Shown here: piece by piece, positions 55 to 16,587 of the stretch | Position numbering within the stretch: position 1 is the first letter of the stretch | Layout: each line of letters begins with the position of its first letter | Assembly: GCA_003222395.1 (NCBI GenBank) | Contig: QHWB01000045.1 | Span: forward strand, 1 to 64,000 | DNA length: 64,000 nucleotides | Reading direction: 5' to 3' | Source of the DNA: Acidobacteriota bacterium | GTDB lineage: Bacteria > Acidobacteriota > Vicinamibacteria > Vicinamibacterales > CAVVIG01 | Translations under genes and position numbers: made by a program | The notes under the pieces: model-generated | Told to the model about the DNA's origin: nothing | The model's input: the letters and a program-made list of their open reading frames with translations, nothing else | Database searches by the model: none

Positions 55-789
55 ATGAGAAGAGTGTGTTTCGCCGCCGCCGTGATCGTGCTCGCCGGAG
101 CCGGTCGCGCGGCGGCACAGAGCACGATCGCCTTTGGCCCGCACGACTTCAGCGCGGGTTCGGCGATTCGCAACACCGACGCGAGTATCAACGGTCAAAC
201 GTGTGTCTTCTGTCACACGCCACACGAGGGGAGCGTCAACGTTCCGCTGTGGAACCGCAGTTCATCGACGAGCACGTATCAGGTGTACGCGAGCTCGACG
301 ATGGACGCGGCGGCGCCCACGTCGGCGGCAATCCAGAGCGGCGTGTCGGGTGCGTGTATGAGCTGCCACGACGGCAGCATCGCGATCGACGTGCTGGCGA
401 ACCTGTCCGGCGTGGCGCACGCCGCCAGCGTCGCCTTCACACGGCAGGCGACGGCAAAGGCGACGTACTCGGCGAGCGGCACCGGTACGAACAACATCCT
501 GTCGGCCGGCTCGCCATTCCTGGGCACCGACCTGCGCAACGACCATCCGATCACGATCATCTACGAGACCTCCCGTGCCGCGACACCGACGCAGTTCGTC
601 ACCCAGGCGATCTCGGGGACGAAGATCACCGTCGGCACCAACCTGCCGCTGCCGCTGTACGGCTCGTCGACGGCGACAGCAACCGTCGAGTGCGCGAGCT
701 GCCACAACCCGCACAACAACGCGTTGGGCTCGTTCCTCCGGAAATCGAATGCCGGAAGCGCCTTGTGCCTGACGTGCCACATCATGTGA
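55..789 (+). CDS. Secreted tetraheme c-type cytochrome (doubled-CXXCH family, OmcE-like candidate)
   Basis: Predicted exported electron-transfer protein of 244 residues. A signal peptide (about residues 1-22, ending AAAQ) precedes four CXXCH heme sites: CVFCH near 50, CMSCH near 101, CASCH near 213 and CLTCH near 238. The mature chain has nine histidines, four in the heme motifs and five others (PHD, TPHE, VAHA, NDHP, NPHN), so bis-His ligation of all hemes is possible. I chose the ATG at 55 because AAGGGG lies 9 nt upstream; in-frame GTG 37 and ATG 46 are alternatives. It resembles the first four-heme module of the large cytochrome at 4716. It heads an operon with PpiC, beta-barrel and NHL genes. 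The match to filament-forming tetraheme cytochromes such as Geobacter OmcE is inference from length, heme number and motif context. Confidence 0.85.
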   Translation: MRRVCFAAAVIVLAGAGRAAAQSTIAFGPHDFSAGSAIRNTDASINGQTCVFCHTPHEGSVNVPLWNRSSSTSTYQVYASSTMDAAAPTSAAIQSGVSGACMSCHDGSIAIDVLANLSGVAHAASVAFTRQATAKATYSASGTGTNNILSAGSPFLGTDLRNDHPITIIYETSRAATPTQFVTQAISGTKITVGTNLPLPLYGSSTATATVECASCHNPHNNALGSFLRKSNAGSALCLTCHIM

Positions 790-816
790 AAGATGCCGGT
801 TTCGAGCACCTGACGT

Positions 817-843
817 CCGGGGAGGAGCGCATCTCCTCCCCGG
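817..843 (+). promoter_or_regulatory. Intercistronic GC-rich hairpin
   Basis: An 11-bp perfect inverted repeat (CCGGGGAGGAG at 817-827 and CTCCTCCCCGG at 833-843) with a 5-nt loop lies between the tetraheme cytochrome stop and the PpiC start. No T-run follows, so it is not a classical intrinsic terminator. It could partly attenuate read-through or protect the 3' end of the cytochrome mRNA. The right arm ends 14 nt before the ATG at 858. Confidence 0.6.
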
Positions 844-857
844 GCTTTGAGACACCT

Positions 858-1877
858 ATGCGTATTCAGCTTGTAGGTTTGATACATCTGGTCCTGAGCG
901 TGTCGGTGATGGCGCAGCTCACGCCGGTGCCATCGCACAACTCACGCCGTTCGTCGCCGCCGGACGGCGCCGTCGTGGCGCGCGTGAACGGCGTGCCGAT
1001 TCTCGGCGGCGACCTCACAGCCGCGTTAAACACTCTCGTCCCGCTCACCTCGTACCACGAGAACGTGAAGCCCGAGAAGATGGACGAACTGCGCGGGCGC
1101 GCGCTCGACGGCCTCATCGACGAAGAGCTTCGTTATCAGGAAGCCGTACGGCTGAAGGTGCAGGTGCCGCCGGCGGAAGTCGAGCAGGCGCTCGACCGCG
1201 CGCGGAAGGCGTACCGCACCGCGGAAGAATTCGAACGCGCGCGCCACGAGTCGGGCGCGACGATGCCGCAGCTGCGCTCGAGCATCCTGCGCGCGCTGAT
1301 AATCCGCAAAACGTACGAACAGGTCGTCGGCAGCAAGTGCGCCGTCAGCGAAGACGACGCCACGACCTATTACCGCGAGAACACCGCGCGCTTCGTGCTC
1401 CCCGAGCAGGTGCGCACGTCGATCATCACGATCGGCGTCGAACGGTCGGCGTCGCCGCGCGAATGGGAGCGGGCGCGGCACGAAGCGGAGGACCTCGCGC
1501 AACGGATCGCCGCCGGGGCATCGTTCGAAGCGCTCGCCCGCGAGCACTCGTCCGATCCCAGCAAGACGAAGGGCGGCGATCTCGGATTCGTCCATCGCGG
1601 TCAGCTGATTGACGAATTCGAGCGCGCGCTGACCCCGCTGCGTCCCGGCCAGGTGAGCCCGGTCGTGCAAACGATCTACGGCTTCCACCTGCTGCGGCTC
1701 GTCGAGATCCGGTCGTCGACCCAGAAGACGTTTGCGGAAATGAAATCGACGATCGTGCGCGACCTGACCGAGACGCGTTGCAATCAGGCGAGCGCCGAGT
1801 GGTCGAAACGGCTGCGCAAGGCCGCGAGCATCGAGATCGTCGACGAACGCCGTCCCGGCGCGAGGATGGCGGGTTGA
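858..1877 (+). CDS. Secreted PpiC/SurA-type peptidyl-prolyl cis-trans isomerase
   Basis: A 339-residue periplasmic or membrane-tethered foldase. A hydrophobic export signal (about residues 1-20) is followed by a SurA-N-like helical region (about 35-170) with the ARVNGVPI segment typical of the family, then a parvulin rotamase domain (about 180-280) with the usual HSSDPS, GGDLGFV and GFHLLRL blocks. It probably helps fold or export the neighbouring cytochromes and beta-barrel. The downstream barrel gene starts inside this gene's stop (TTGA overlap), so translation is likely coupled. The start is the ATG at 858; the frame is open upstream but that part is arginine-rich shadow sequence over the cytochrome gene. 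Family assignment is firm; client proteins are inferred from context. Confidence 0.88.
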   Translation: MRIQLVGLIHLVLSVSVMAQLTPVPSHNSRRSSPPDGAVVARVNGVPILGGDLTAALNTLVPLTSYHENVKPEKMDELRGRALDGLIDEELRYQEAVRLKVQVPPAEVEQALDRARKAYRTAEEFERARHESGATMPQLRSSILRALIIRKTYEQVVGSKCAVSEDDATTYYRENTARFVLPEQVRTSIITIGVERSASPREWERARHEAEDLAQRIAAGASFEALAREHSSDPSKTKGGDLGFVHRGQLIDEFERALTPLRPGQVSPVVQTIYGFHLLRLVEIRSSTQKTFAEMKSTIVRDLTETRCNQASAEWSKRLRKAASIEIVDERRPGARMAG

Positions 1878-3673
1878 TCGAACCGATCGCGCTGCGGGCG
1901 TCGATCGCCTGCCTCTTCGTGCTCGTTCCGGTGGTGCTCGCCGCGCAAAGCATCGACGGTACGGCCGACTGGGGCTATGGCCGTTCGACGTACCGCACCG
2001 GCGACGAGCAGACGACGAACAGTTCGTTCATGCAGGGCTATACGCTCGGCTACCGATCGTCGTTCTGGGATCCGCGCTTTCTGACTTATGCCGGGGAGCT
2101 GACGTTCAACAGGAACACGTTGACGTTCGGCCAGGACGAGGGCGCATCGAAGCAGACGGGATTCAAAGTGACGGCGAATCTGTTCCCGACGCGACCGTTT
2201 CGCGCGTCGATACACGGATCGCGTCAGATCGGCGGCGAATCGGCGAACTATCCGGAATCGAGCGCCATGCGCGGCGGGCTGGTGCTGGCGGCCGGATCGA
2301 CACCTGAACTGAGGACCGAACGGTCGGAGTTCGGCGTCAACTGGCAGCTCACGGGCAAGTCGATGCCGCGCGTGGAGCTGAGCTACCAGGAAGGTACGGC
2401 GACGATCGCCGCCGGCTCGCTCGATGCCGTGCAGCAGCAGAGCTCGCTCCAGGCGCTCGTCGCGCGCGAGGGGCCGCGCCTCAGCAACACGCTTCGCTAT
2501 CAGCGCAGCGCGTTCGACAACGGCGTTTCACAGGCGTTCCGGCAGCGGTACAGCGACCTTGGGTACGAGCTCGTGGCGCGGGCCAGCGATCGAACCTGGG
2601 GGACTGTGCGTGCCGGCCGGCGCACCACCTTTTCGCTGTTCGACGTCCCGGCGCAATTCACCGACATCGGCATCGCCAGCTACCATCCGCCGCCGGGTGG
2701 CGAAATCGACCTTCTGTACGGGACGGCCACGCTCGCGCACCAGGCGAACGAGGGTCTTTCCGCCGACATGAGCGTCGGCTTCGATCGCGAGCAATCGGAC
2801 GTCGGCGGCACGACCGCGCTCCTCGCAACCGCAACGACGCAGTATCGGCCGTTGACCGGCGTCACGCTGCACGGCAGCGGAACCTACGGCGATCGCGGTC
2901 AGGAGACACCCGGCACGCGGCTCGTCGTGCTGACGCGCGGCGTCGCGACCGGCGCCGAATACAGTCTCGTTCTCCGCCTCCTGCGCGCCGGCGCCGCGTA
3001 TGAAGTCGGCCGCGGCTGGAACACGAGCGAGCACGGGCTCAACGGCGCGTCGCGCCTGTGGCGCGGACGCGCCGAGGCGGGGACCGGCGTGCTTCGCTTC
3101 GTGCAGCTCAACGTCGGCTACGACCAATCGCGATCGGTCGACGATCTGCTGCCGTTCGGCAACCAGTGGCAGGAGCGCACGCACGCGAGCGCCCACAGTA
3201 CGCTGACCGCCCGCATCACGCTCGACGCCGGCTACGAAACGGCGTCGATCGAACGCGGCCTTGCGCCGGAGCTGTTTCGCACCCGCTATCGGCAGGCAAC
3301 CGGTGCGGTGTCGTTCGCGCTGACGCGCCAGCGGCAGCTGTCGTTCACCAGCGGCCGTTTCTTCAATCACTCGTTCGCGGCCGACGACAGCAACGAGTAC
3401 GTCGGGCTCGCGTTCAACGGTTCCCTGGTCGGGCCGCTTCGCCTCGCGCTCACCGTCCGGCGCGAGCACACGTTGTCAGCCGTGTCGCGGCTCGATCAGG
3501 ACGGCTACTACACCAACGGTGTGATCGAATACCGGGTTCGACTATTCACCTTCAGCCTCGAGCACCGGTACACCGATCTCGCGCTCGTGTATGCAGGCCG
3601 CCTCGAGCCGCTGACGTTCACCGGCAATCAGATCCTGTTCCGGGTAACCCGAAGATTCGGGCTCGCGCGCTGA
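1874..3673 (+). CDS. Putative outer-membrane beta-barrel protein of an electron-transfer locus
   Basis: About 599 residues. The TTG start at 1874 overlaps the PpiC stop by 4 nt and gives a typical signal peptide (hydrophobic core about residues 6-22, ending LAAQ). The rest alternates polar and hydrophobic residues in the pattern of transmembrane beta-strands, with many aromatic girdle residues and repeated basic-aromatic strand ends such as LRYQRS and LEHRYTDL. No plug domain or TonB box is seen. Between two multiheme cytochrome genes, a barrel of this size could be the porin part of a porin-cytochrome conduit (MtrB or OmbB analogue). I see no sequence signature that assigns a named family. 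The stop overlaps the next ATG (TGATG). Confidence 0.7.
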   Translation: MIEPIALRASIACLFVLVPVVLAAQSIDGTADWGYGRSTYRTGDEQTTNSSFMQGYTLGYRSSFWDPRFLTYAGELTFNRNTLTFGQDEGASKQTGFKVTANLFPTRPFRASIHGSRQIGGESANYPESSAMRGGLVLAAGSTPELRTERSEFGVNWQLTGKSMPRVELSYQEGTATIAAGSLDAVQQQSSLQALVAREGPRLSNTLRYQRSAFDNGVSQAFRQRYSDLGYELVARASDRTWGTVRAGRRTTFSLFDVPAQFTDIGIASYHPPPGGEIDLLYGTATLAHQANEGLSADMSVGFDREQSDVGGTTALLATATTQYRPLTGVTLHGSGTYGDRGQETPGTRLVVLTRGVATGAEYSLVLRLLRAGAAYEVGRGWNTSEHGLNGASRLWRGRAEAGTGVLRFVQLNVGYDQSRSVDDLLPFGNQWQERTHASAHSTLTARITLDAGYETASIERGLAPELFRTRYRQATGAVSFALTRQRQLSFTSGRFFNHSFAADDSNEYVGLAFNGSLVGPLRLALTVRREHTLSAVSRLDQDGYYTNGVIEYRVRLFTFSLEHRYTDLALVYAGRLEPLTFTGNQILFRVTRRFGLAR

Positions 3674-4719
3674 TGGTGCCGATTCGACGCACCATGTCGG
3701 TCCGCGCCGCGACCGCAGCGACGGTCGTTGCCGTCGCCCTGGCGTCGCCGCACGCCCAGACCGGCGGCGTCGAACGCGGCGGCCGAACCCGTGTCGCGGC
3801 CAGGAGCGTCGAGCGCGTGTGGCCCGATCCGCCGGCCCAGGCGCGCATCCGATTCGTGACCTCCCTGGTGCCGCAAACCTCGGCCAGGCGTTCGCTCCTC
3901 CGCAGGCTATGGACCGCGGTGTCCGGCGGAAGCGACGCGCCGGCGATGGCGCACCCCTACGGCATGGCGATGGGTCCGCTCGGCCGCCTCTACGTCACCG
4001 ACGCGGCCGGCCACGCCGTGCACGTGTACGACGTCCGCGCAGGCGGCTACTCGAAATTGAACGTCGACGGTGAATCGCTGATCGGTGTCGCCACGCTCGG
4101 CGGTCGTCTGTTCGTCACCGACTCCGTAGGCGGCAGCGTGATCTGTCTGAACGCCGCCGGACGGAAGCAGTGGGCCGTCGGCGCCGAAGCCGGACTCCAG
4201 CGACCGACGGGCATCGTCGCTGCGGACGATCGGCTGCATGTCGTCGACACGCTCGCTCACCGCATCGTCACGCTCAGCCCCGAGGGGCGCGTGATCGGGT
4301 CGTTCGGATCGCGCGGCAACGAGCCGGGTCAATTCAACTACCCGACCAACATCGCGCGCGATCGGAGCGGCCGGTTGTACGTGACCGACAGCATGAATTT
4401 CCGCGTCCAGATTCTGACGTCGGAGGGGCGCTACATCTCCGACTTCGGACGTGTCGGAGACGGCTCCGGCGACTTGAATCGACCGAAAGGCGTGGCCGTC
4501 GACGGCGAGGGTCATGTGTACGTGGTCGAGGGACTGCACGACGTCGTGCAGATCTTCGACAGCGAAGGTCACTTCCTTCTCAGTTTCGGAGAGCCGGGCC
4601 ACGGCGACGGGGAATTCTGGCTCGCGACCGGAATCGCGATCGTCGGCGATCGCATCTACGTGGCCGATTCCTCGAACGGACGCGTCGAAGTGTTCGACTA
4701 CCTGCGGGAGGAGCGGTGA
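3673..4719 (+). CDS. Secreted NHL-repeat beta-propeller protein
   Basis: 348 residues with a signal peptide (about 1-30). At least five or six NHL-type blades follow, from about residue 95 to the end, marked by recurring motifs such as GRLYVTD, RPTGIVAADDRLHVVD, GQFNYPTNIARD, GHVYVVE and DRIYVADSSNGRVEVF. NHL propellers act as protein-protein scaffolds and are often found near exported multiheme cytochromes, so a role in assembly or surface docking of the cytochromes is likely but inferred. The start overlaps the barrel stop by 1 nt and the end overlaps the next start (GTGA), placing the gene in the middle of a translationally coupled operon. Confidence 0.88.
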   Translation: MVPIRRTMSVRAATAATVVAVALASPHAQTGGVERGGRTRVAARSVERVWPDPPAQARIRFVTSLVPQTSARRSLLRRLWTAVSGGSDAPAMAHPYGMAMGPLGRLYVTDAAGHAVHVYDVRAGGYSKLNVDGESLIGVATLGGRLFVTDSVGGSVICLNAAGRKQWAVGAEAGLQRPTGIVAADDRLHVVDTLAHRIVTLSPEGRVIGSFGSRGNEPGQFNYPTNIARDRSGRLYVTDSMNFRVQILTSEGRYISDFGRVGDGSGDLNRPKGVAVDGEGHVYVVEGLHDVVQIFDSEGHFLLSFGEPGHGDGEFWLATGIAIVGDRIYVADSSNGRVEVFDYLREER

Positions 4720-6506
4720 GAGCGACGGCGGCGCTTTGCACGGCGTCCGCGGTGCTGGCGGCCGCAATCGCGCTCGAGTCGACGGCGCGCGCGCAGGTGC
4801 CGGTGTCTTCGCCGTCGAACAAGCACAATCTCTCCGTCAGCGGCACTGGAACCGTTCGTTCGACGGGAACGACCGAGATCTGCATCTTCTGCCACGCGCC
4901 GCACAACGCGAGCCCGTCGGCGCCGCTCTGGAACCAGACGCAGTCGGGCGTCACCTATACGCCCTACAGCAGCAGCACGATGGCGGCTTCTCCCGGCGCG
5001 CCGACCGGATCGGCGAAGCTGTGTCTGAGCTGCCACGACGGCACCGTCGCGATTGGGTCGACGCTGTCGCGAGGGTCGATCCCGATGACCGGCGTCGATG
5101 GGTCCGGACGGCTGACCGGCGCCGCGGCGATCGGATCGAACCTCTCCGACGACCATCCGATTTCGTTCGTGCCCGTCACGGGTTCGCAAATCGTCGCACC
5201 CCGGGCCGGCGATCCGGTGAAGCTCGACGACCACGGCATGCTGCAGTGCCGCAGCTGTCACGATCCGCACCAGCAGGACGTCGATCCGGTCACGAAGAAG
5301 TTCCTCGTCAAGAACAATTCGCAGTCGGCCTTGTGCCTCACCTGCCATCAGAAGACCTACTGGTCGTCGACGCCCGCGTCGCACCGAACATCCACGAAGA
5401 CGTACACGGCTGCGCAGGGAGCGCACACCGGCTATACGACTGTCGGGGCGAACGGATGCGAGAGCTGTCACAAGCCGCACACGGCCACCAACGCCAGCCG
5501 GATGTTGAAAGACGTCGAGGAGAAGAGCTGCGACGCGTGCCACGGATCGAGCGGCGTCGCGACGTCGAACATTGCCGCGGAATTCAACAAGGCCTATCAA
5601 CATCCCACGTACACCGTCACGCCGTCGGCGCACGATGCCTCGGAGTCGCCCGATTCAATCCTTTTCAAGATGCCGGAGACGACCGCCACCGCCGCGCGAC
5701 ACGCGGAATGCGCCGACTGCCACAACCCGCATGCGAGCCATGCGGCGGCAACGACTGCCCCCAAGGCGTCCGGTCGATTGGCGGGCGTGTGGGGGATCGA
5801 CAGCAACGGGCTGCGCGTGGAACCGAGCGGAACGCCGCCGTCGGTTCGCGAGTACGAGATCTGTTTGAAGTGTCACGGCGATTCGGCGAACAAGCAGCAG
5901 CCGGCGGGACCCTCTCCGCCGTACGCGAATCGCCAGGCCGCTCAGTTCAACAAACGGCTGCAATTCGATCCGGCAAATCCTTCATTTCACCCGGTCGAGG
6001 CGCCGGGACGCAGCACGTCGGTTCCGAGCCTGATCGCGCCGTGGTCGACGACCAGCACAATCTACTGCACCGACTGCCACGACAACGACACTGGTCCGAA
6101 GGCGCCCACGCCGGGCACCGGCCCGGCGGGGCCGCACGGCTCGAACTACAAGCACCTGCTCGTCGCGCGGTACGACATGGACAACGGCTCGCAGCTGGAG
6201 TCGGCCGCCGCGTATGCGCTCTGTTACAAGTGCCACGACCGGTCGAGCATTCTCTCGGACATCTCGTTCAAAAAGCACAACCGTCACCTCGTGAACGCGG
6301 CGGCCCCGTGCTCGGTGTGCCACGACTCGCACGGCATCAGCGCGACGCAGGGCACGACGACGAACAACAGTCGCTTGATCAACTTCGACAAACGATTCGT
6401 GTCGCCGAACGCGAGCGGGCTGCTTCGCTTCGAGGTCACGGGAGCCGGCAGCGGTCGCTGCTATCTGAATTGTCATGGGATTGAACATAACCCTCTCAGC
6501 TACTGA
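4716..6506 (+). CDS. Large exported multiheme c-type cytochrome (11 CXXCH plus one CXXXCH)
   Basis: 596 residues, GTG start overlapping the NHL stop by 4 nt. The signal peptide (about 1-28, ending ARAQ) is followed by eleven CXXCH sites: CIFCH (about 56), CLSCH, CRSCH, CLTCH, CESCH, CDACH, CADCH, CLKCH, CTDCH, CYKCH and CSVCH. A twelfth, unusual CYLNCH site (CX3CH) lies near residue 582. Residues to about 215 repeat the architecture of the tetraheme protein at 55-789 (paired CXXCH, SDDHPISF-like block, CRSCHDPH, ALCLTCH), so the protein looks like that module extended with eight more heme sites. Many CXXCH are followed by NPH, DPH, KPH or DSH, giving extra histidine ligands. It is likely periplasmic or outer surface and part of a long-range electron path with the upstream genes. 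Confidence 0.9.
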   Translation: MRATAALCTASAVLAAAIALESTARAQVPVSSPSNKHNLSVSGTGTVRSTGTTEICIFCHAPHNASPSAPLWNQTQSGVTYTPYSSSTMAASPGAPTGSAKLCLSCHDGTVAIGSTLSRGSIPMTGVDGSGRLTGAAAIGSNLSDDHPISFVPVTGSQIVAPRAGDPVKLDDHGMLQCRSCHDPHQQDVDPVTKKFLVKNNSQSALCLTCHQKTYWSSTPASHRTSTKTYTAAQGAHTGYTTVGANGCESCHKPHTATNASRMLKDVEEKSCDACHGSSGVATSNIAAEFNKAYQHPTYTVTPSAHDASESPDSILFKMPETTATAARHAECADCHNPHASHAAATTAPKASGRLAGVWGIDSNGLRVEPSGTPPSVREYEICLKCHGDSANKQQPAGPSPPYANRQAAQFNKRLQFDPANPSFHPVEAPGRSTSVPSLIAPWSTTSTIYCTDCHDNDTGPKAPTPGTGPAGPHGSNYKHLLVARYDMDNGSQLESAAAYALCYKCHDRSSILSDISFKKHNRHLVNAAAPCSVCHDSHGISATQGTTTNNSRLINFDKRFVSPNASGLLRFEVTGAGSGRCYLNCHGIEHNPLSY

Positions 6507-6839: not shown

Positions 6840-8453
6840 ATGAGGCGTTTTCGATTAGCAGCCACATGGGTGGCGATGATAGGCCTTGTGGCCTGTCAGG
6901 GCCGGACGCCAACCGCGCCGAGCGGCGGAACTGGCAATTCTCCGGCGAGCGTAGTACTTCACGACGACTCGGGTTCGCTGAGCGCGCAACTGACAGCGTC
7001 GCCGTCGACGATCAACTCTGGGCAGTCTTCGACCCTGACGTGGACCACGAACGACGCCGATTCTGCGTACCTGGATGGCGTCCAGGTGGCCAGGAGTGGA
7101 TCGAAGACCGTTTCTCCAACTGCGACGAAGACTTACACACTCGTCGCGGTCGACCACGACCAGCGCGTGTCGTCGAGCGCGACGGTCACGGTGTCGGGTA
7201 GCGGCTCGAGCGGCGGCAGCACTGAGCACGTTGAGGCACACCTCGTGGCGAGCCCAACGACGATCCAACCGGGACAGTCTTCAACGCTGACATGGACCAC
7301 AGACGACGCGGACCATGCGTACTTGAATGGCGTCGAAGTGTCGAGGTACGGATCCAAGACCGTCTCTCCAGCCAGCACCACCACCTACACGCTGGTCGCA
7401 GTGAACGGAACCCTGAAGGACTCATCGAGCGTCACGGTGACGGTGTCGGGCACGGCGCCGCCGCCTCCACCGGTAGCCACGCCGACCGCGTTGTTGACGC
7501 CGGCGTCGGCGACGATTGTAAGCGGCCAGTCGGTCACGTTGACGTGGGCCACGACGAACGCGACGTCGGTGACGATGAATGGCAGCGCCGTCGCTGCGAG
7601 CGGATCGCAGTCGTACTCGCCGACGGTCACGACGACCTACACGCTCGTGGCCAGCAACTCTGCCGGCTCGGTCACGGACACGACAACCGTAACGGTGAAC
7701 GCTCCTGCGCCGCCGCCGGTTGCAATGCCCACCGCAACGTTGACGCCGCCGTCGGCGACGATTACGAGCGGCCAGTCGGTGACGTTGACGTGGTCCACGA
7801 CGAACGCGACGTCGGTGACGATGAACGGCGTCGCCGTCGGCGCGAACGGATCGCAATCGTACTCGCCGACGGTCACGACGACCTACACGCTGGTGGCCAG
7901 CAACTCCGCGGGCTCGGTCACGGACACGACAACCGTGACGGTGAATGCGCCGATGCCCACCGCGCTAATCAACGCGATGCCGATGTCGATCCAGAGCGGC
8001 CAGAGCTCGACGCTCCAGTGGTCCAGCTCGAACGCGACGACTGTGACGTTGAACGGGTCGGCCGTCAGCGCGAGCGGATCGCGAATGGTCTCGCCGACTG
8101 CTACGACGACGTACACGCTGGTCGCCAGCAACTCGACCGGTTCGGTTCAGTCGGCGGTGACCGTGACCGTCACGGCTCCGGCGCCGGTGGGGCTCACCTA
8201 CGTGACCGACATCAAGCCGATCATGGACAGCAACTGCATCATGTGTCACGGCGGCCCACAGCCGACCGCGGGGCGTGATTTCTCGACGTACGCCGGCGTC
8301 ATGACCGTCGTCACGCCGGGCGATCCGAATTCGCGCATCATTCAGATGACGAGGACCGGCGGATCGATGCACTTCTACCTCAATCCGAACCCGGATGTAA
8401 GGGCGCAGACGATCTACGACTGGATCGTCACGTACGGCGCACCGCAGCAGTAA
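6840..8453 (+). CDS. Lipoprotein with five Ig-like repeats and a C-terminal monoheme cytochrome domain (copy A)
   Basis: 537 residues. A lipobox (IGLVAC, Cys about residue 19) predicts a lipid-anchored protein. Five Ig-like repeats of about 80-90 residues follow, each with SGQS(S/V)TLTW near its start and TTTYTLVASN or similar near its end, separated by Pro-rich linkers. The C-terminal domain (about 455-537) carries one heme site, CIMCH (about 466), and a conserved Met (GGSMHFYLN) that could be the distal ligand, as in planctomycete-type cytochrome domains. The layout suggests a stalk holding a heme away from the membrane. A diverged tandem copy lies at 9298. Two hairpins follow the stop. Acceptor or donor partners are inferred to be the upstream multiheme cytochromes. 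Confidence 0.82.
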   Translation: MRRFRLAATWVAMIGLVACQGRTPTAPSGGTGNSPASVVLHDDSGSLSAQLTASPSTINSGQSSTLTWTTNDADSAYLDGVQVARSGSKTVSPTATKTYTLVAVDHDQRVSSSATVTVSGSGSSGGSTEHVEAHLVASPTTIQPGQSSTLTWTTDDADHAYLNGVEVSRYGSKTVSPASTTTYTLVAVNGTLKDSSSVTVTVSGTAPPPPPVATPTALLTPASATIVSGQSVTLTWATTNATSVTMNGSAVAASGSQSYSPTVTTTYTLVASNSAGSVTDTTTVTVNAPAPPPVAMPTATLTPPSATITSGQSVTLTWSTTNATSVTMNGVAVGANGSQSYSPTVTTTYTLVASNSAGSVTDTTTVTVNAPMPTALINAMPMSIQSGQSSTLQWSSSNATTVTLNGSAVSASGSRMVSPTATTTYTLVASNSTGSVQSAVTVTVTAPAPVGLTYVTDIKPIMDSNCIMCHGGPQPTAGRDFSTYAGVMTVVTPGDPNSRIIQMTRTGGSMHFYLNPNPDVRAQTIYDWIVTYGAPQQ

Positions 8454-8588: not shown

Positions 8589-8645
8589 CCGATCGCGGCC
8601 GCAGCTACAGCTTCGAGTCCTGCCGACGCTCTCGTCCTCGTACGC

Positions 8646-8872
8646 GGTCGCGCCATCTCATTGCTGGCGTCGGCTCCGTACGCTTGATGTGCCACCACTC
8701 CTACGGCGTCAGCGCAACGCATAGCACCTCTCTGAACAAACCGCCGCGCAGTCAAAGTTCGACGAACTATTCGTGTCGCCCAGCGGACACTGGTTCGATT
8801 TCGACGGGAGCAGGAAGCGGTCGGTGCTACCGGAATTGTGATGTGACGAAACACAATCCTGCCAGCCGCTGA
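8646..8872 (+). pseudogene. Decayed copy of the 3' end of the large multiheme cytochrome
   Basis: The translated remnant (most clearly 8686-8872) matches the last 75 or so residues of the cytochrome ending at 6506. Shared blocks are CH-S-GVSAT against CHDSHGISAT, TGAGSGRCY-NC against the identical TGAGSGRCYLNC, and KHNPAS against EHNPLS. Heme residues are lost: CSVCH became RLMCH and CYLNCH became CYRNCD. There is no start codon context or signal peptide. It lies in the same position relative to lipoprotein B as the intact cytochrome does to lipoprotein A, so it is the truncated left end of a tandem duplication. Confidence 0.8.
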
Positions 8873-9297: not shown

Positions 9298-10542
9298 ATG
9301 AAGCGTCTTGGATTAGCACTCTTGTCGATAGCGGCGCTCGGTCTGACGGCGTGTCAGGGCCATTCGCCAACCGGTCCGAGCGAGGCTCCTGCTGTCGCTG
9401 CCGTGAACGGCGTCCTGAACGATGACTCCGAGGACTCGTATGTGAAGGCGCGCCTGACGGCAAATCCGTCGACGATCAGCGCCGGACAGACGTCGACTCT
9501 GACGTGGACGAGCAGCAACGCGAGATACGTGTACCTCGATGGCGTTGCTGTGGCGAAGAGCGGATCGAAGAACGTCTCTCCCAGACAGACGAAAACCTAC
9601 ACGCTTGTTGCCGTCAATGGATCCCACCGCACCTCGTCGAGCGCCACGGTAAAGGTGTCGAGCGGCTCGGATGACGGCGAACGCGACGATGACGACGACC
9701 ACACATCCACGCCGCCGCCACCGCCAACGCCTACACCAACGCCTACACCAACGCCTACACCAACGCCTACACCAACGCCAACGCTGCCGACGGCATCGTT
9801 GACGCCGGCATCGGCGACGATTCAAAACGGCCAGTCGATCACGTTGAATTGGACCACAACGGACACAGTGTCGGTGACGATGAATGGCGTCGCGGTCGCC
9901 TTAAACGGATCGCGGACGTACTCACCGACTGTTTCCACGACGTACACGCTCGTCGCCACCAACCCCGCCGGCTCGGCCACGGATACGTCGATCATCACCG
10001 TGACGGCCACGCCCCCGCCGCCGGCGCCGATGCCGACCGCGCTGCTCATTGCGATGGGGACTTCGATCCAGAGCGGCCAGAGCACACAACTGCAGTGGTC
10101 CACGTCGAACGCGGTGACGATCACCCTCGACGGATCGCCCGTGAGCGCGAACGGATCGCGAACGATCTCGCCGACGGCGACGACGACGTACACGCTCGTT
10201 GCCAGCAATGCGAGCGGGTCCGTCGAATCGGCGGTGACCGTCACGGTTACAGCAGCGCCGACACCCCCTGCGCCAGCGGCGCTGACCTACGTGAACGACA
10301 TCAAGCCGATCATGGACAGCAACTGCATCATGTGTCATGGCGGCCCATCCCCGACCGCCGGACGTGACTTCTCGACGTACGCCGGCGTCATGACCGTCGT
10401 CACGCCGGGCGATCCCAATTCGCGCCTCATTCAGATGACGAGGACCGGCGGAGCGATGCACTTCTACCTCAATCCGAATCCGGATGTAAGGGCGCAGACG
10501 ATCTACGACTGGATCGTCACGTATGCCGCGCCGGAGCAGTAA
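9298..10542 (+). CDS. Lipoprotein with three Ig-like repeats, a TP-rich linker and a C-terminal monoheme domain (copy B)
   Basis: 414 residues. The lipobox is LGLTAC (Cys about 19). Three Ig-like repeats with the same SGQ-S-TLTW and TYTLVA signatures as the upstream paralogue are present, so two repeats fewer. An acidic DDGERDDDDDH stretch and a Pro-Thr repeat (about residues 143-163) separate the first repeat from the other two. The heme domain is nearly identical to copy A (CIMCHGG, GRDFSTYAGVMTVVTPGDPN, GGAMHFYLN), indicating conservation of the redox head while the stalk length changed. A strong SD lies 10 nt upstream. Likely outer-membrane or periplasmic anchored redox protein; partner unknown. 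Confidence 0.82.
   Translation: MKRLGLALLSIAALGLTACQGHSPTGPSEAPAVAAVNGVLNDDSEDSYVKARLTANPSTISAGQTSTLTWTSSNARYVYLDGVAVAKSGSKNVSPRQTKTYTLVAVNGSHRTSSSATVKVSSGSDDGERDDDDDHTSTPPPPPTPTPTPTPTPTPTPTPTPTLPTASLTPASATIQNGQSITLNWTTTDTVSVTMNGVAVALNGSRTYSPTVSTTYTLVATNPAGSATDTSIITVTATPPPPAPMPTALLIAMGTSIQSGQSTQLQWSTSNAVTITLDGSPVSANGSRTISPTATTTYTLVASNASGSVESAVTVTVTAAPTPPAPAALTYVNDIKPIMDSNCIMCHGGPSPTAGRDFSTYAGVMTVVTPGDPNSRLIQMTRTGGAMHFYLNPNPDVRAQTIYDWIVTYAAPEQ
9724..9783 (+). repeat. 12-bp tandem repeat encoding a Thr-Pro linker
   Basis: About four to five copies of a CCAACGCCTACA-type unit inside lipoprotein B, coding for alternating Thr-Pro. It is absent from copy A. Length is likely variable between strains by slippage, which would alter spacing between the first Ig-like repeat and the distal part of the protein. 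Confidence 0.85.
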
Positions 10543-14398: not shown

Positions 14399-15381
14399 CG
14401 CCAGCTGTTCGGCAGGTTTCGATCGATTTCGATGTCCGACCGCCGGCTCGGCTCGCGCGGCCCGACGCGCCGCGCCCAATCGGCCATCCGCTGCAGCCCG
14501 TCCGGCAGCGACCATTTCGCCTTGTAGCCGAACACGCGCGCAACCTTGGCATGATCGGCGACGGCGTGCAGCACTTCCTTCCGCGCCTCGACGTGGTCGA
14601 TCGCCGGCGGCTTTCCCATCGCCCGGGCAACCATGACCGCCAGCTCGTTGACGCTCGTCGCTTCGTCGGCGCCGACGTTGAAGACGTCGTCGTAGGCGGC
14701 AGGCACGTCGATCGCGCGCGCAATCAGCGGAGCCACGTCGCCAATGTAGCTGAAGCCGCGCGACTGCATCCCGTCGCCGAAAATCGTCATCCGTTCGCCG
14801 CGCATCAGCTGATTCATGAAGATGCCGATGACGTTGCGATAACGGTCGCCGAGGTGCTGTCGCTCGCCGTAGACGTTGTGCGGCCGGAAGATGACGTAGC
14901 GCAGCCCGAACATGCGCCGCGCCGCCCGCAGATCGAGCTCGACCGCGAATTTCGCGACGCCGTACGGATCCTCGGGCTCCGGCGTGAGCTCTTCGTGCAT
15001 CGGTGTCTGGCCGGCGCCGTACACCGCGATCGAGCTGGTGAAGACGAAGCACGCCACTTCCGCTTTCACCGCCTCGTTCAGGACGTTCATCGAGCCGACG
15101 ACGTTGTTGGTGTAGTTGAACCGGCGAATGAAATGGCTGAGACCTTCGGCCGCGTAGGCGGCCAGGTGGAAGACGTGCGTGATGCGATGCTCCGCGAAGA
15201 TCCGCGGAACGAGCGTGGCGTCGGCGACCGATCCTTCGTAGAAGATCGTGCCCTTCGGCAGATTATCGGTAAATCCTCCGGAAAGATCGTCGAGCCCGAC
15301 GACTTCGTTTCCGCGTCCGAGAAGGTGCTCGACGACGTGCGATCCAATGAAGCCGGCGGCGCCGGTCACGAGGATGGCCAT
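14395..15381 (-). CDS. NAD-dependent sugar-nucleotide epimerase/dehydratase (extended SDR)
   Basis: 328 residues. The N-terminus has the Rossmann TGAAGFIGSH signature (residues 6-15). An SSIAVYG segment precedes the catalytic YGVAK (YxxxK, about 140-144). A HNVYGERQHLGDRYRNVI region and an FGDGMQSRGFSYIGD block are typical of UDP-glucose 4-epimerase-like enzymes. It probably supplies an activated sugar for the flanking glycosyltransferases. It overlaps the TPR gene by 4 nt and follows the GT2 gene at 15397-16329 by 15 nt, all on the minus strand, so the three form one operon. Substrate specificity is not determined by the visible motifs. Confidence 0.85.
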   Translation of the reverse strand: MAILVTGAAGFIGSHVVEHLLGRGNEVVGLDDLSGGFTDNLPKGTIFYEGSVADATLVPRIFAEHRITHVFHLAAYAAEGLSHFIRRFNYTNNVVGSMNVLNEAVKAEVACFVFTSSIAVYGAGQTPMHEELTPEPEDPYGVAKFAVELDLRAARRMFGLRYVIFRPHNVYGERQHLGDRYRNVIGIFMNQLMRGERMTIFGDGMQSRGFSYIGDVAPLIARAIDVPAAYDDVFNVGADEATSVNELAVMVARAMGKPPAIDHVEARKEVLHAVADHAKVARVFGYKAKWSLPDGLQRMADWARRVGPREPSRRSDIEIDRNLPNSWR

Positions 15382-15396
15382 CAGCGCGTATCGGGC

Positions 15397-16329
15397 TTAT
15401 CCGCCGGCGCGCCCGTGCCGTAACAGCGCGAACTGTTTCTGCCGCATCGATCGCTCGCGTACGTGCGAGAAGGGCGCGGCGCCAGTCATCCAGCGCGCCA
15501 CCTGCCACAGGGTCGCCGTCGTCAGCCGTCCGACCATGATCGAGTAGTAGAGCGCGGCCGGAAGCGAGCCGTGATGTTTGCGGAAGTAAGAGAGATGGCT
15601 GCGAAAGTGGACGAAAGTCTTGTCCTTCATGAACGGCCGCGCGGCGGCGCCGAGGTGGATCATCGATGCGCCCGGCCAGAACCGAACCTTCCATCCCGCC
15701 GTCCATGCGCGACGGCACCAGTCGATGTCCTCGTCGTAAATGAAGAACCGCTCATCGAGCGGGCCGATCTCGTCGAGACATCTGCGTCGCACCAGCAGAA
15801 AGCTGCCGCAGACCCAGTCGACGTCGCGCTCGGTGTCGACCGCCGCAGGTGACGCATCTTCAGGGTTATGTCGGAGGCCGACCAAAGACAGTAATTCACG
15901 CCATGGTCTGGGGAAACGATACGCCGAGGGCTGCCGCGACCGCGCCGCGTCGGCGTTGCAGTGCAGGATCCCGAGCGCGCCGACGTCCTGATGAGCGTCC
16001 ATGTAGCGGACGGCAGCCGTCAGCGCGTCACCTGTCTGAACGGTATCGTTGTTCAGCAGCACGACGTAGCGTCCAGTCGCGCGCGCGATGCCCTGATTGT
16101 TCGCCACGCTGAACCCGAGGTTGCGCGGGTTCGCGATGAAGGTCATCGAGGGAAACCGTTTGGGCAGCTCGCGCGCGCTGTCGTCGCGCGTCGTGCCGTT
16201 GTCGACGACGATCAGCTCGTAGCGGATGCCCCGCGTGTGTTCCTGGATCGACGCCAGCGCAGCCGCGGTCGTCTCGCACGCATTCCAATTCACGAGGATG
16301 ACCGAGAGATCGGGGAGGATGCGAAGAAT
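15397..16329 (-). CDS. GT2 family glycosyltransferase (rhamnosyltransferase-like), start codon uncertain
   Basis: About 310 residues. Motifs include DLSVILVNWN at the N-terminus, LIVVDNGTTRDDS, NPRNLGFSVANNQG, VLLNNDT (DXD-like) and FIYDEDIDWCRRA, which match the WbbL/rhamnosyltransferase branch of GT2. There is no ATG, GTG or TTG between the family's usual N-terminus and position 16434. Candidates are ATT at 16329 or ATC at 16320 (7 nt after a TATAAT at 16333-16328), a TTG at 16434, or an internal GTG at 16293 that would remove the first strand. The boundary given is a compromise. It is the first gene of the epimerase/TPR operon. Confidence 0.8.
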   Translation of the reverse strand: MLRILPDLSVILVNWNACETTAAALASIQEHTRGIRYELIVVDNGTTRDDSARELPKRFPSMTFIANPRNLGFSVANNQGIARATGRYVVLLNNDTVQTGDALTAAVRYMDAHQDVGALGILHCNADAARSRQPSAYRFPRPWRELLSLVGLRHNPEDASPAAVDTERDVDWVCGSFLLVRRRCLDEIGPLDERFFIYDEDIDWCRRAWTAGWKVRFWPGASMIHLGAAARPFMKDKTFVHFRSHLSYFRKHHGSLPAALYYSIMVGRLTTATLWQVARWMTGAAPFSHVRERSMRQKQFALLRHGRAGG

Positions 16330-16434
16330 TATACGTGAGGTGCCCGAGCTCGGCCGTTCATCGTGGTATCGCCCTTGCTCAGAACGGCGTCGTTCTTTCC
16401 GCCCACGTGACGTCCGAGAAGGAGGAGGCCGCAA

Positions 16435-16587
16435 ATGGCGAACGACAGCGATCGGAATCAGAACGAAGAGGCAATCCCGGGCACGAAGGATGAGGAGATG
16501 AGGGGTCGCGCCGAAGACGAGAGCGAAGACGATTTCGAGGACGTTGAAGAGGTCGAGGCAGACGAACACGAAGTGGACGAAGAGTGA
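16435..16587 (+). CDS. Small, highly acidic protein of unknown function
   Basis: A 50-residue protein starting MANDSDRNQNEE, with about half of all residues Asp or Glu, very few hydrophobics and no Cys. It is preceded by an excellent Shine-Dalgarno (AAGGAGGAGG, about 8 nt before the ATG). The stop overlaps the next start (GTGA), which strongly supports translation. No family is recognised; the composition suggests an intrinsically disordered protein, perhaps stress-related or nucleic-acid mimicking. Confidence 0.6.
   Translation: MANDSDRNQNEEAIPGTKDEEMRGRAEDESEDDFEDVEEVEADEHEVDEE

Follow-up and report, generated by a model that had tools for sequence, protein, structure and literature searches.

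The window analyzed here is a 64,000-nucleotide stretch of DNA from a member of the Acidobacteriota (GenBank assembly GCA_003222395.1, contig QHWB01000045.1, positions 1 to 64,000; genome of 7.74 Mb), and it begins at base 1 of its contig, designated C30. Positions 55-6506 hold five co-directional genes that encode, in order, a tetraheme cytochrome, a PpiC isomerase, an outer-membrane beta-barrel, an NHL propeller and a 12-heme cytochrome (Table 1), and our subject is the candidate cytochrome wire system that these genes appear to specify. An earlier interpretation made from the letters of the window (the sequence-only reading) had named the same gene products, and open reading frames (ORFs), translations, family matches and a structure model bear these identities out. 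It had also described the genes as coupled by 1- to 4-nt overlaps except at the first junction, which proved accurate: in gene order, the overlaps at the final three junctions are 4 nt (TTGA), 1 nt and 4 nt (GTGA), and the sole non-overlapping junction is a 68-nt gap between the tetraheme and PpiC genes. The tetraheme ORF has further in-frame starts at 37 and 46, and the barrel ORF starts with TTG. The N-termini of all five proteins are hydrophobic, as is typical of export, and a lipobox was found in none of the five. Relative to its counterpart at locus L115 of Acidobacteria gp6 AA36 (proteins 66-88% identical), each gene has a ratio of nonsynonymous to synonymous substitution rates (dN/dS) of 0.16-0.34, indicating that all five are under selection as proteins.

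Table 1. Features of the operon and of the DNA directly downstream of it (positions in the window).
Feature	Position	Strand	Description
Tetraheme cytochrome gene	55-789	+	OmcE-type c-type cytochrome, 244 aa, candidate wire subunit
Hairpin	817-843	+	Perfect 11-bp stem, 5-nt loop, between subunit gene and PpiC gene
PpiC gene	858-1877	+	SurA/PpiC-type peptidyl-prolyl isomerase, 339 aa, exported
Barrel gene	1874-3673	+	Outer-membrane beta-barrel, 599 aa, 28 strands in AlphaFold2 model
NHL gene	3673-4719	+	NHL-repeat propeller, 348 aa, exported
12-heme cytochrome gene	4716-6506	+	596 aa, OmcE-like N-terminal domain, C-terminal CX3CH
Ig-like repeat lipoprotein, single CXXCH at its C-terminus	6840-8453	+	Probable accessory
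Decayed remnant of the C-terminal part of a second 12-heme cytochrome	8645-8872	+	CYRNCD replaces CYLNCH
Second lipoprotein, Ig-repeat monoheme, paralogue of the 6840-8453 product	9298-10542	+	

Sequence comparison shows the tetraheme protein to be homologous to OmcE, a nanowire subunit known from Geobacter (PDB 7TFS). A phmmer search aligned its residues 10-242 with OmcE (E = 7e-32); another multiheme cytochrome of solved structure, 9YUQ, was also matched (E = 6e-26). When a family profile of 86 relatives was compared with OmcE, OmcS and archaeal filament proteins, as the sequence-only reading had proposed, the outcome was clear for OmcE (E = 5e-63, versus 5e-8 over 39 residues only for OmcS), and no archaeal filament protein was listed among the matches. 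An AlphaFold2 model of the protein aligned with 7TFS over 190 residues (Z = 13.0; root-mean-square deviation (rmsd) 3.2 A), and 7TFS was its only PDB match at E ≤ 0.001 in Foldseek. In a phylogenetic tree, OmcE nests inside the tetraheme family beside a Myxococcota protein, and the window protein falls in an acidobacterial clade.

The four CXXCH motifs and five other histidines noted earlier are all present in the translation, but only four of the extra histidines are conserved, and the candidate scheme in which all five act as ligands was rejected because H122 is kept in just 4 of the 86 relatives. Eight histidines are invariant across these relatives (H30, H54, H57, H105, H164, H217, H220 and H242), four of which (H30, H57, H164 and H220) are distal, lying outside the CXXCH motifs; this is exactly enough axial ligands for four bis-His hemes. 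OmcE has the same eight histidines in the alignment. One interfacial heme of OmcE takes its second histidine from the adjoining subunit (PMC12954529). Since OmcE uses one such inter-subunit bond and shares the eight histidines, the inter-subunit ligand of the window protein should be among these eight, if its hemes are ligated as in OmcE. The marks of an OmcE-type subunit are in place, namely full-length homology, four CXXCH motifs and four distal histidines in position, and a predicted OmcE fold, and on this analysis the protein is probably the subunit of an OmcE-type wire.

An OmcE-like domain also follows the signal peptide of the 12-heme protein, at residues ~24-213 (E = 5.5e-25 to 7TFS). 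It retains all eight ligands, and its four distal histidines are all kept in 59 of 63 family members. The complete protein has 11 CXXCH motifs and one CX3CH motif near its C-terminus (C582), the latter kept in 58 of 62 relatives, including the L115 protein (14599-16494). The CX3CH spacing is unusual for heme sites, and the motif is best described as heme-like, with putative attachment. Judged by its sequence, a wire-subunit-like domain fused to further hemes has the expected look of a wire base or adaptor.

Family matches of the PpiC protein were to Rotamase_3 (E = 3e-21) and SurA_N, and that of the NHL protein was to PF01436 (E = 1e-26). The AlphaFold2 model of the barrel, built from a 51-sequence alignment, has a predicted local distance difference test (pLDDT) score of 86.5, and its 28 beta-strands were counted from the DSSP listing. 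Its top Foldseek match was chain B of the Mtr complex (6r2q_B; E = 2.5e-10), with a TM score of just 0.47 and other large barrels close behind. We take this chain to be MtrB, which has 26 strands. An iterative profile search started from the barrel protein gathered 81 of the 90 barrel-sized ORFs at the same position in other loci, a figure that supports position and fold more than strict orthology because profile iteration can drift among barrels. TonB receptors, which dominated the VIA-align results, were not used as evidence of kinship (rmsd ~12 A). A conduit-plus-wire system is consistent with the 28 strands predicted for the barrel and with the OmcE fusion in the 12-heme protein, and together with the OmcE match these features support the earlier view of the operon as a cytochrome-filament or porin-cytochrome system. 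An alternative is that the operon encodes soluble periplasmic multiheme carriers with generic folding factors and has no extracellular role. The lack of a lipobox in all five proteins would suit such carriers, as would the commonness of NHL and PpiC proteins, but the operon contains a dedicated gene for a 28-strand outer-membrane barrel, translationally coupled to its neighbors, and phylum after phylum retains the gene set; we consider this alternative highly improbable.

The operon is longer than the 55-6506 interval to which it had been assigned, as the end of the window's contig cuts it. On the minus strand at the left end of contig C106 (C106:1-4072, locus L110) are genes for a 12-heme cytochrome, a ResA-like thioredoxin that contains TPR repeats, a 9-heme cytochrome and an NHL protein cut by the contig end. 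The cut NHL protein has its best match in the NHL gene that immediately precedes the tetraheme gene at locus L050, a tetraheme gene 71% identical to that of the window. L115 has the intact order of 12-heme, ResA-like, 9-heme, NHL, tetraheme, PpiC, barrel, NHL and 12-heme genes. Because of this synteny with L050 and L115, we join C106 to C30 with high confidence as the missing upstream part of the operon; sequence overlap between the two contigs was looked for directly and none was found. For the 12-heme protein encoded upstream, one chain of the Mtr complex (6r2q) was matched at E = 1e-14, and a match to the DmsE family fell below the cut-off. A survey of gene order in relatives, of the kind that the sequence-only reading had recommended for other Acidobacteriota, found the order again with diverged proteins; this recurrence and the dN/dS values against L115 given above show that the arrangement is not due to chance.

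The gap between the subunit and PpiC genes holds a hairpin with a fold z of -3.2, and L115 has a comparable hairpin. At junctions with a 40-250 nt gap, perfect stems of at least 8 bp follow 27 of 65 tetraheme genes (42%) versus 19 of 232 other genes from the same loci (8%; p = 2e-9); with any gap length, the counts are 38/138 versus 24/756. These rows share phylogeny, so the p-values overstate the case. The hairpin was rejected as an intrinsic terminator, having no T-run and not being listed by a terminator scan, and for these reasons it is more likely a stability or partial-attenuation element. The dosage of a strongly expressed subunit is commonly raised by a stem-loop behind its gene, and the position of this hairpin fits dosage control of a polymer subunit. 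The hairpin also bears on a second alternative, a porin-cytochrome conduit with no wire, in which the tetraheme and 12-heme proteins would be monomeric outer-surface terminal cytochromes fed via the barrel, as in Mtr. Such a conduit would accord with MtrB as the nearest Foldseek match of the barrel model, with MtrA/DmsE-like cytochromes upstream and with the occurrence of an OmcE-like domain within a larger cytochrome. The tetraheme protein, however, resembles OmcE in particular, by its sequence, its fold and all eight of its ligands, and the hairpin after its gene suggests that many copies are needed, and we therefore regard a conduit lacking a wire as unlikely.

Relatives of the subunit were found in 55 of 396 sampled Acidobacteriota genomes and in 5 of 27 genomes of the window organism's own family, which points to a patchy trait. 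A scan of named genomes returned at least 562 relatives, and the best 80 of these include proteins of Nitrospirota, Gemmatimonadota, KSB1, Calditrichota, Myxococcota, Pseudomonadota (symbionts of tubeworms and lucinids among them), Campylobacterota, Aquificota and others. Related gene sets were found in more than 10 bacterial phyla, often with the same neighbors. Among 183 subunit-like genes, 95 have an NHL gene no more than two genes upstream, 105 have a barrel-sized ORF downstream, 86 have a further NHL gene downstream, and 107 lie near a cytochrome with at least six hemes; these counts are approximate, as many other genes lie at contig ends or are paralogues and a few loci were counted twice. 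The combination of neighbors had been thought undescribed in an acidobacterium. A search that was not exhaustive found no open paper on an OmcE-type cluster or such wires in Acidobacteriota, so that novelty is claimed cautiously, but variants of the combination are widespread and it is not unique to this organism. It had further been held that homologues lacking any of the neighbors would speak against the proposed system; many loci do lack PpiC or one NHL gene, but this demand is too strict. A compact version of the cluster occurs at seven loci from chemosynthetic symbionts of tubeworms and lucinid clams and consists of genes for an NHL protein, a tetraheme protein, small three-heme proteins, a large ORF, an NHL protein and an 11-CXXCH cytochrome. 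Seven genomes, all of one acidobacterial family, encode giant cytochromes (~42 CXXCH, ~1,030 residues) next to their tetraheme clusters.

It is probable, in our judgment, that the products of this operon make up a cytochrome wire of the OmcE type, together with an outer-membrane conduit and assembly factors that belong to it. The tetraheme subunit would be exported, hemylated and held in a foldable state by the PpiC chaperone, and would leave the cell through or beside the 28-strand barrel. Subunits would then polymerize, with one heme per subunit taking a histidine of its neighbor, as in OmcE. The 12-heme protein may sit at the base of the wire and join it electrically to the barrel and to periplasmic cytochromes, for which the MtrA/DmsE-like 12-heme and 9-heme cytochromes encoded just upstream on the adjoining contig are the candidate partners. 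The two NHL propellers may assist assembly or cap the complex, and the hairpin behind the subunit gene would allow the subunit to be made in excess.

Several points weigh against this proposal. The locus is known here from genes and predicted structures, and homology to a filament subunit is not proof of polymerization. The tetraheme AlphaFold2 model is of medium confidence (pLDDT 72.8), and the barrel protein has no match to any Pfam or NCBIfam family, the MtrB/PioB models included. PpiC lies near just 65 of the 183 subunit-like genes, and many loci lack it. OmcE itself may be independent of linked partners, because omcE is a predicted single-gene transcription unit (PMC1829397). Finally, an inner-membrane cytochrome of the NapC/NirT type, which passes electrons from quinol to the periplasm, was searched for in the genome and not found.

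The last point also concerns the direction of electron flow, since the same wire and conduit might be run inwards, with Fe(II), Mn(II) or a partner cell as the electron source, rather than passing electrons out to minerals. This possibility overlaps with the preferred explanation, which leaves direction open. Uptake would be in keeping with relatives in tubeworm and lucinid symbionts, Sulfuritalea, Rhodoferax and a Betaproteobacterium labelled MnB, and with the proposal that a related oet cluster accepts electrons from methane-oxidising archaea (PMC10553843). Gene content cannot give direction, however, and with the inner-membrane partner not found in the genome, inward flow is somewhat unlikely.

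Downstream of the operon are two paralogous lipoprotein genes (Table 1), which possibly encode surface-tethered monoheme cytochromes of the same system. L115 has an ORF after its operon with a start similar to that of the first lipoprotein and one CXXCH. The second lipoprotein has PT-rich linkers between its immunoglobulin (Ig)-like repeats. Since the decayed 12-heme C-terminus sits between the paralogous genes, it suggests that a cytochrome-lipoprotein pair was duplicated in tandem.

Even in Geobacter, the secretion, anchoring and charging of cytochrome wires have yet to be worked out (PMC12307469), and the physiological need for them is disputed (PMC13194489). In more than 10 phyla, soil Acidobacteriota included, the OmcE-type subunit comes with a defined set of helpers, which opens wire assembly to study far outside Geobacter, with each helper testable by gene removal or reconstitution. 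The OmcE-fused 12-heme protein is a specific candidate for the connection that has been missing between wire and outer membrane, and the cluster provides a genomic marker more specific than heme-motif counts. A broader reading, which we hold only tentatively, is that a phylum-spanning machine makes and anchors OmcE-type wires, with the 12-heme protein as adaptor to the 28-strand barrel. The wire would start with the OmcE-like first domain of the adaptor as its first rung, and the adaptor's other hemes, ending in the conserved CX3CH, would reach the barrel. Helper sets of the same kind would then serve unrelated wires, OmcS in Geobacter and the OmcE-type subunit here.

Of the described systems, OmcE of Geobacter sulfurreducens (GSU0618) is of the same family as the window subunit, with ~38% identity, the same predicted fold and the same positions of four CXXCH motifs and four distal histidines. 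OmcE has been seen as a filament, with a rise of 34 A (PMC12954529), whereas the window protein is known from its gene. The gene omcE is predicted to be transcribed alone and lies near ppcA, resBC-like genes and other cytochrome genes (PMC1829397, PMC7894505), whereas the window subunit gene is linked to those for PpiC, the barrel, propellers and the OmcE-fused 12-heme protein. The MtrCAB conduit (PDB 6R2Q) likewise has a large barrel, and MtrB was the top structural match of the window barrel, whose upstream cytochromes are DmsE/MtrA-like; unlike MtrB, the window barrel has 28 predicted strands and no match to MtrB/PioB family models. The DFE_0448-0465 island of Desulfovibrio ferrophilus resembles the window in having several multiheme cytochromes, propellers and a PpiC isomerase (PMC8322314, PMC9769857), but no OmcE-type subunit is described in it, and this comparison is by description only.

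The osc (OmcS-companion) cluster of Geobacter (GSU2504-GSU2494) comprises a wire cytochrome, OscD (morphology), OscEFG (secretion), OscH (folding) and large cytochromes (PMC13194489, PMC12977616), and Osc proteins are proposed to fold, secrete and shape OmcS wires (PMC13194489, citing Shen et al. 2025). Its part classes are those of the window operon, a likeness by class description and not by sequence comparison. Shen et al., in their osc paper of 2025, reportedly describe OscD as propeller-like and OscH as a prolyl isomerase. In SEEP-SRB1 syntrophic sulfate reducers, genes for a propeller, PpiC and 16- and 26-heme cytochromes are clustered (PMC5539420), and the OetABI cluster includes the outer-membrane barrel OetI (PMC10553843), so that propeller, PpiC, outer-membrane barrel and large cytochromes occur together there as in the window. 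The claim that PpiC and NHL proteins accompany such loci in Geobacter is thereby confirmed by the literature for the osc and oet clusters (PMC13194489, PMC5539420). The wires themselves differ. The osc wire is hexaheme OmcS, and the OetABI core cytochromes, of 16 and 26 hemes, go together with OmcS- or OmcX-like wires, whereas the window has 12- and 9-heme cytochromes and a tetraheme, OmcE-like subunit with only the short OmcS match noted above; OmcE and OmcS have no sequence similarity (PMC12954529). Next to its candidate wire cytochrome, the window locus nevertheless has all of the other parts: a propeller, PpiC, an outer-membrane channel and multiheme cytochromes of large size. The closest described systems are the Geobacter osc and oet clusters, and the window is a variant of these with an OmcE-type wire.

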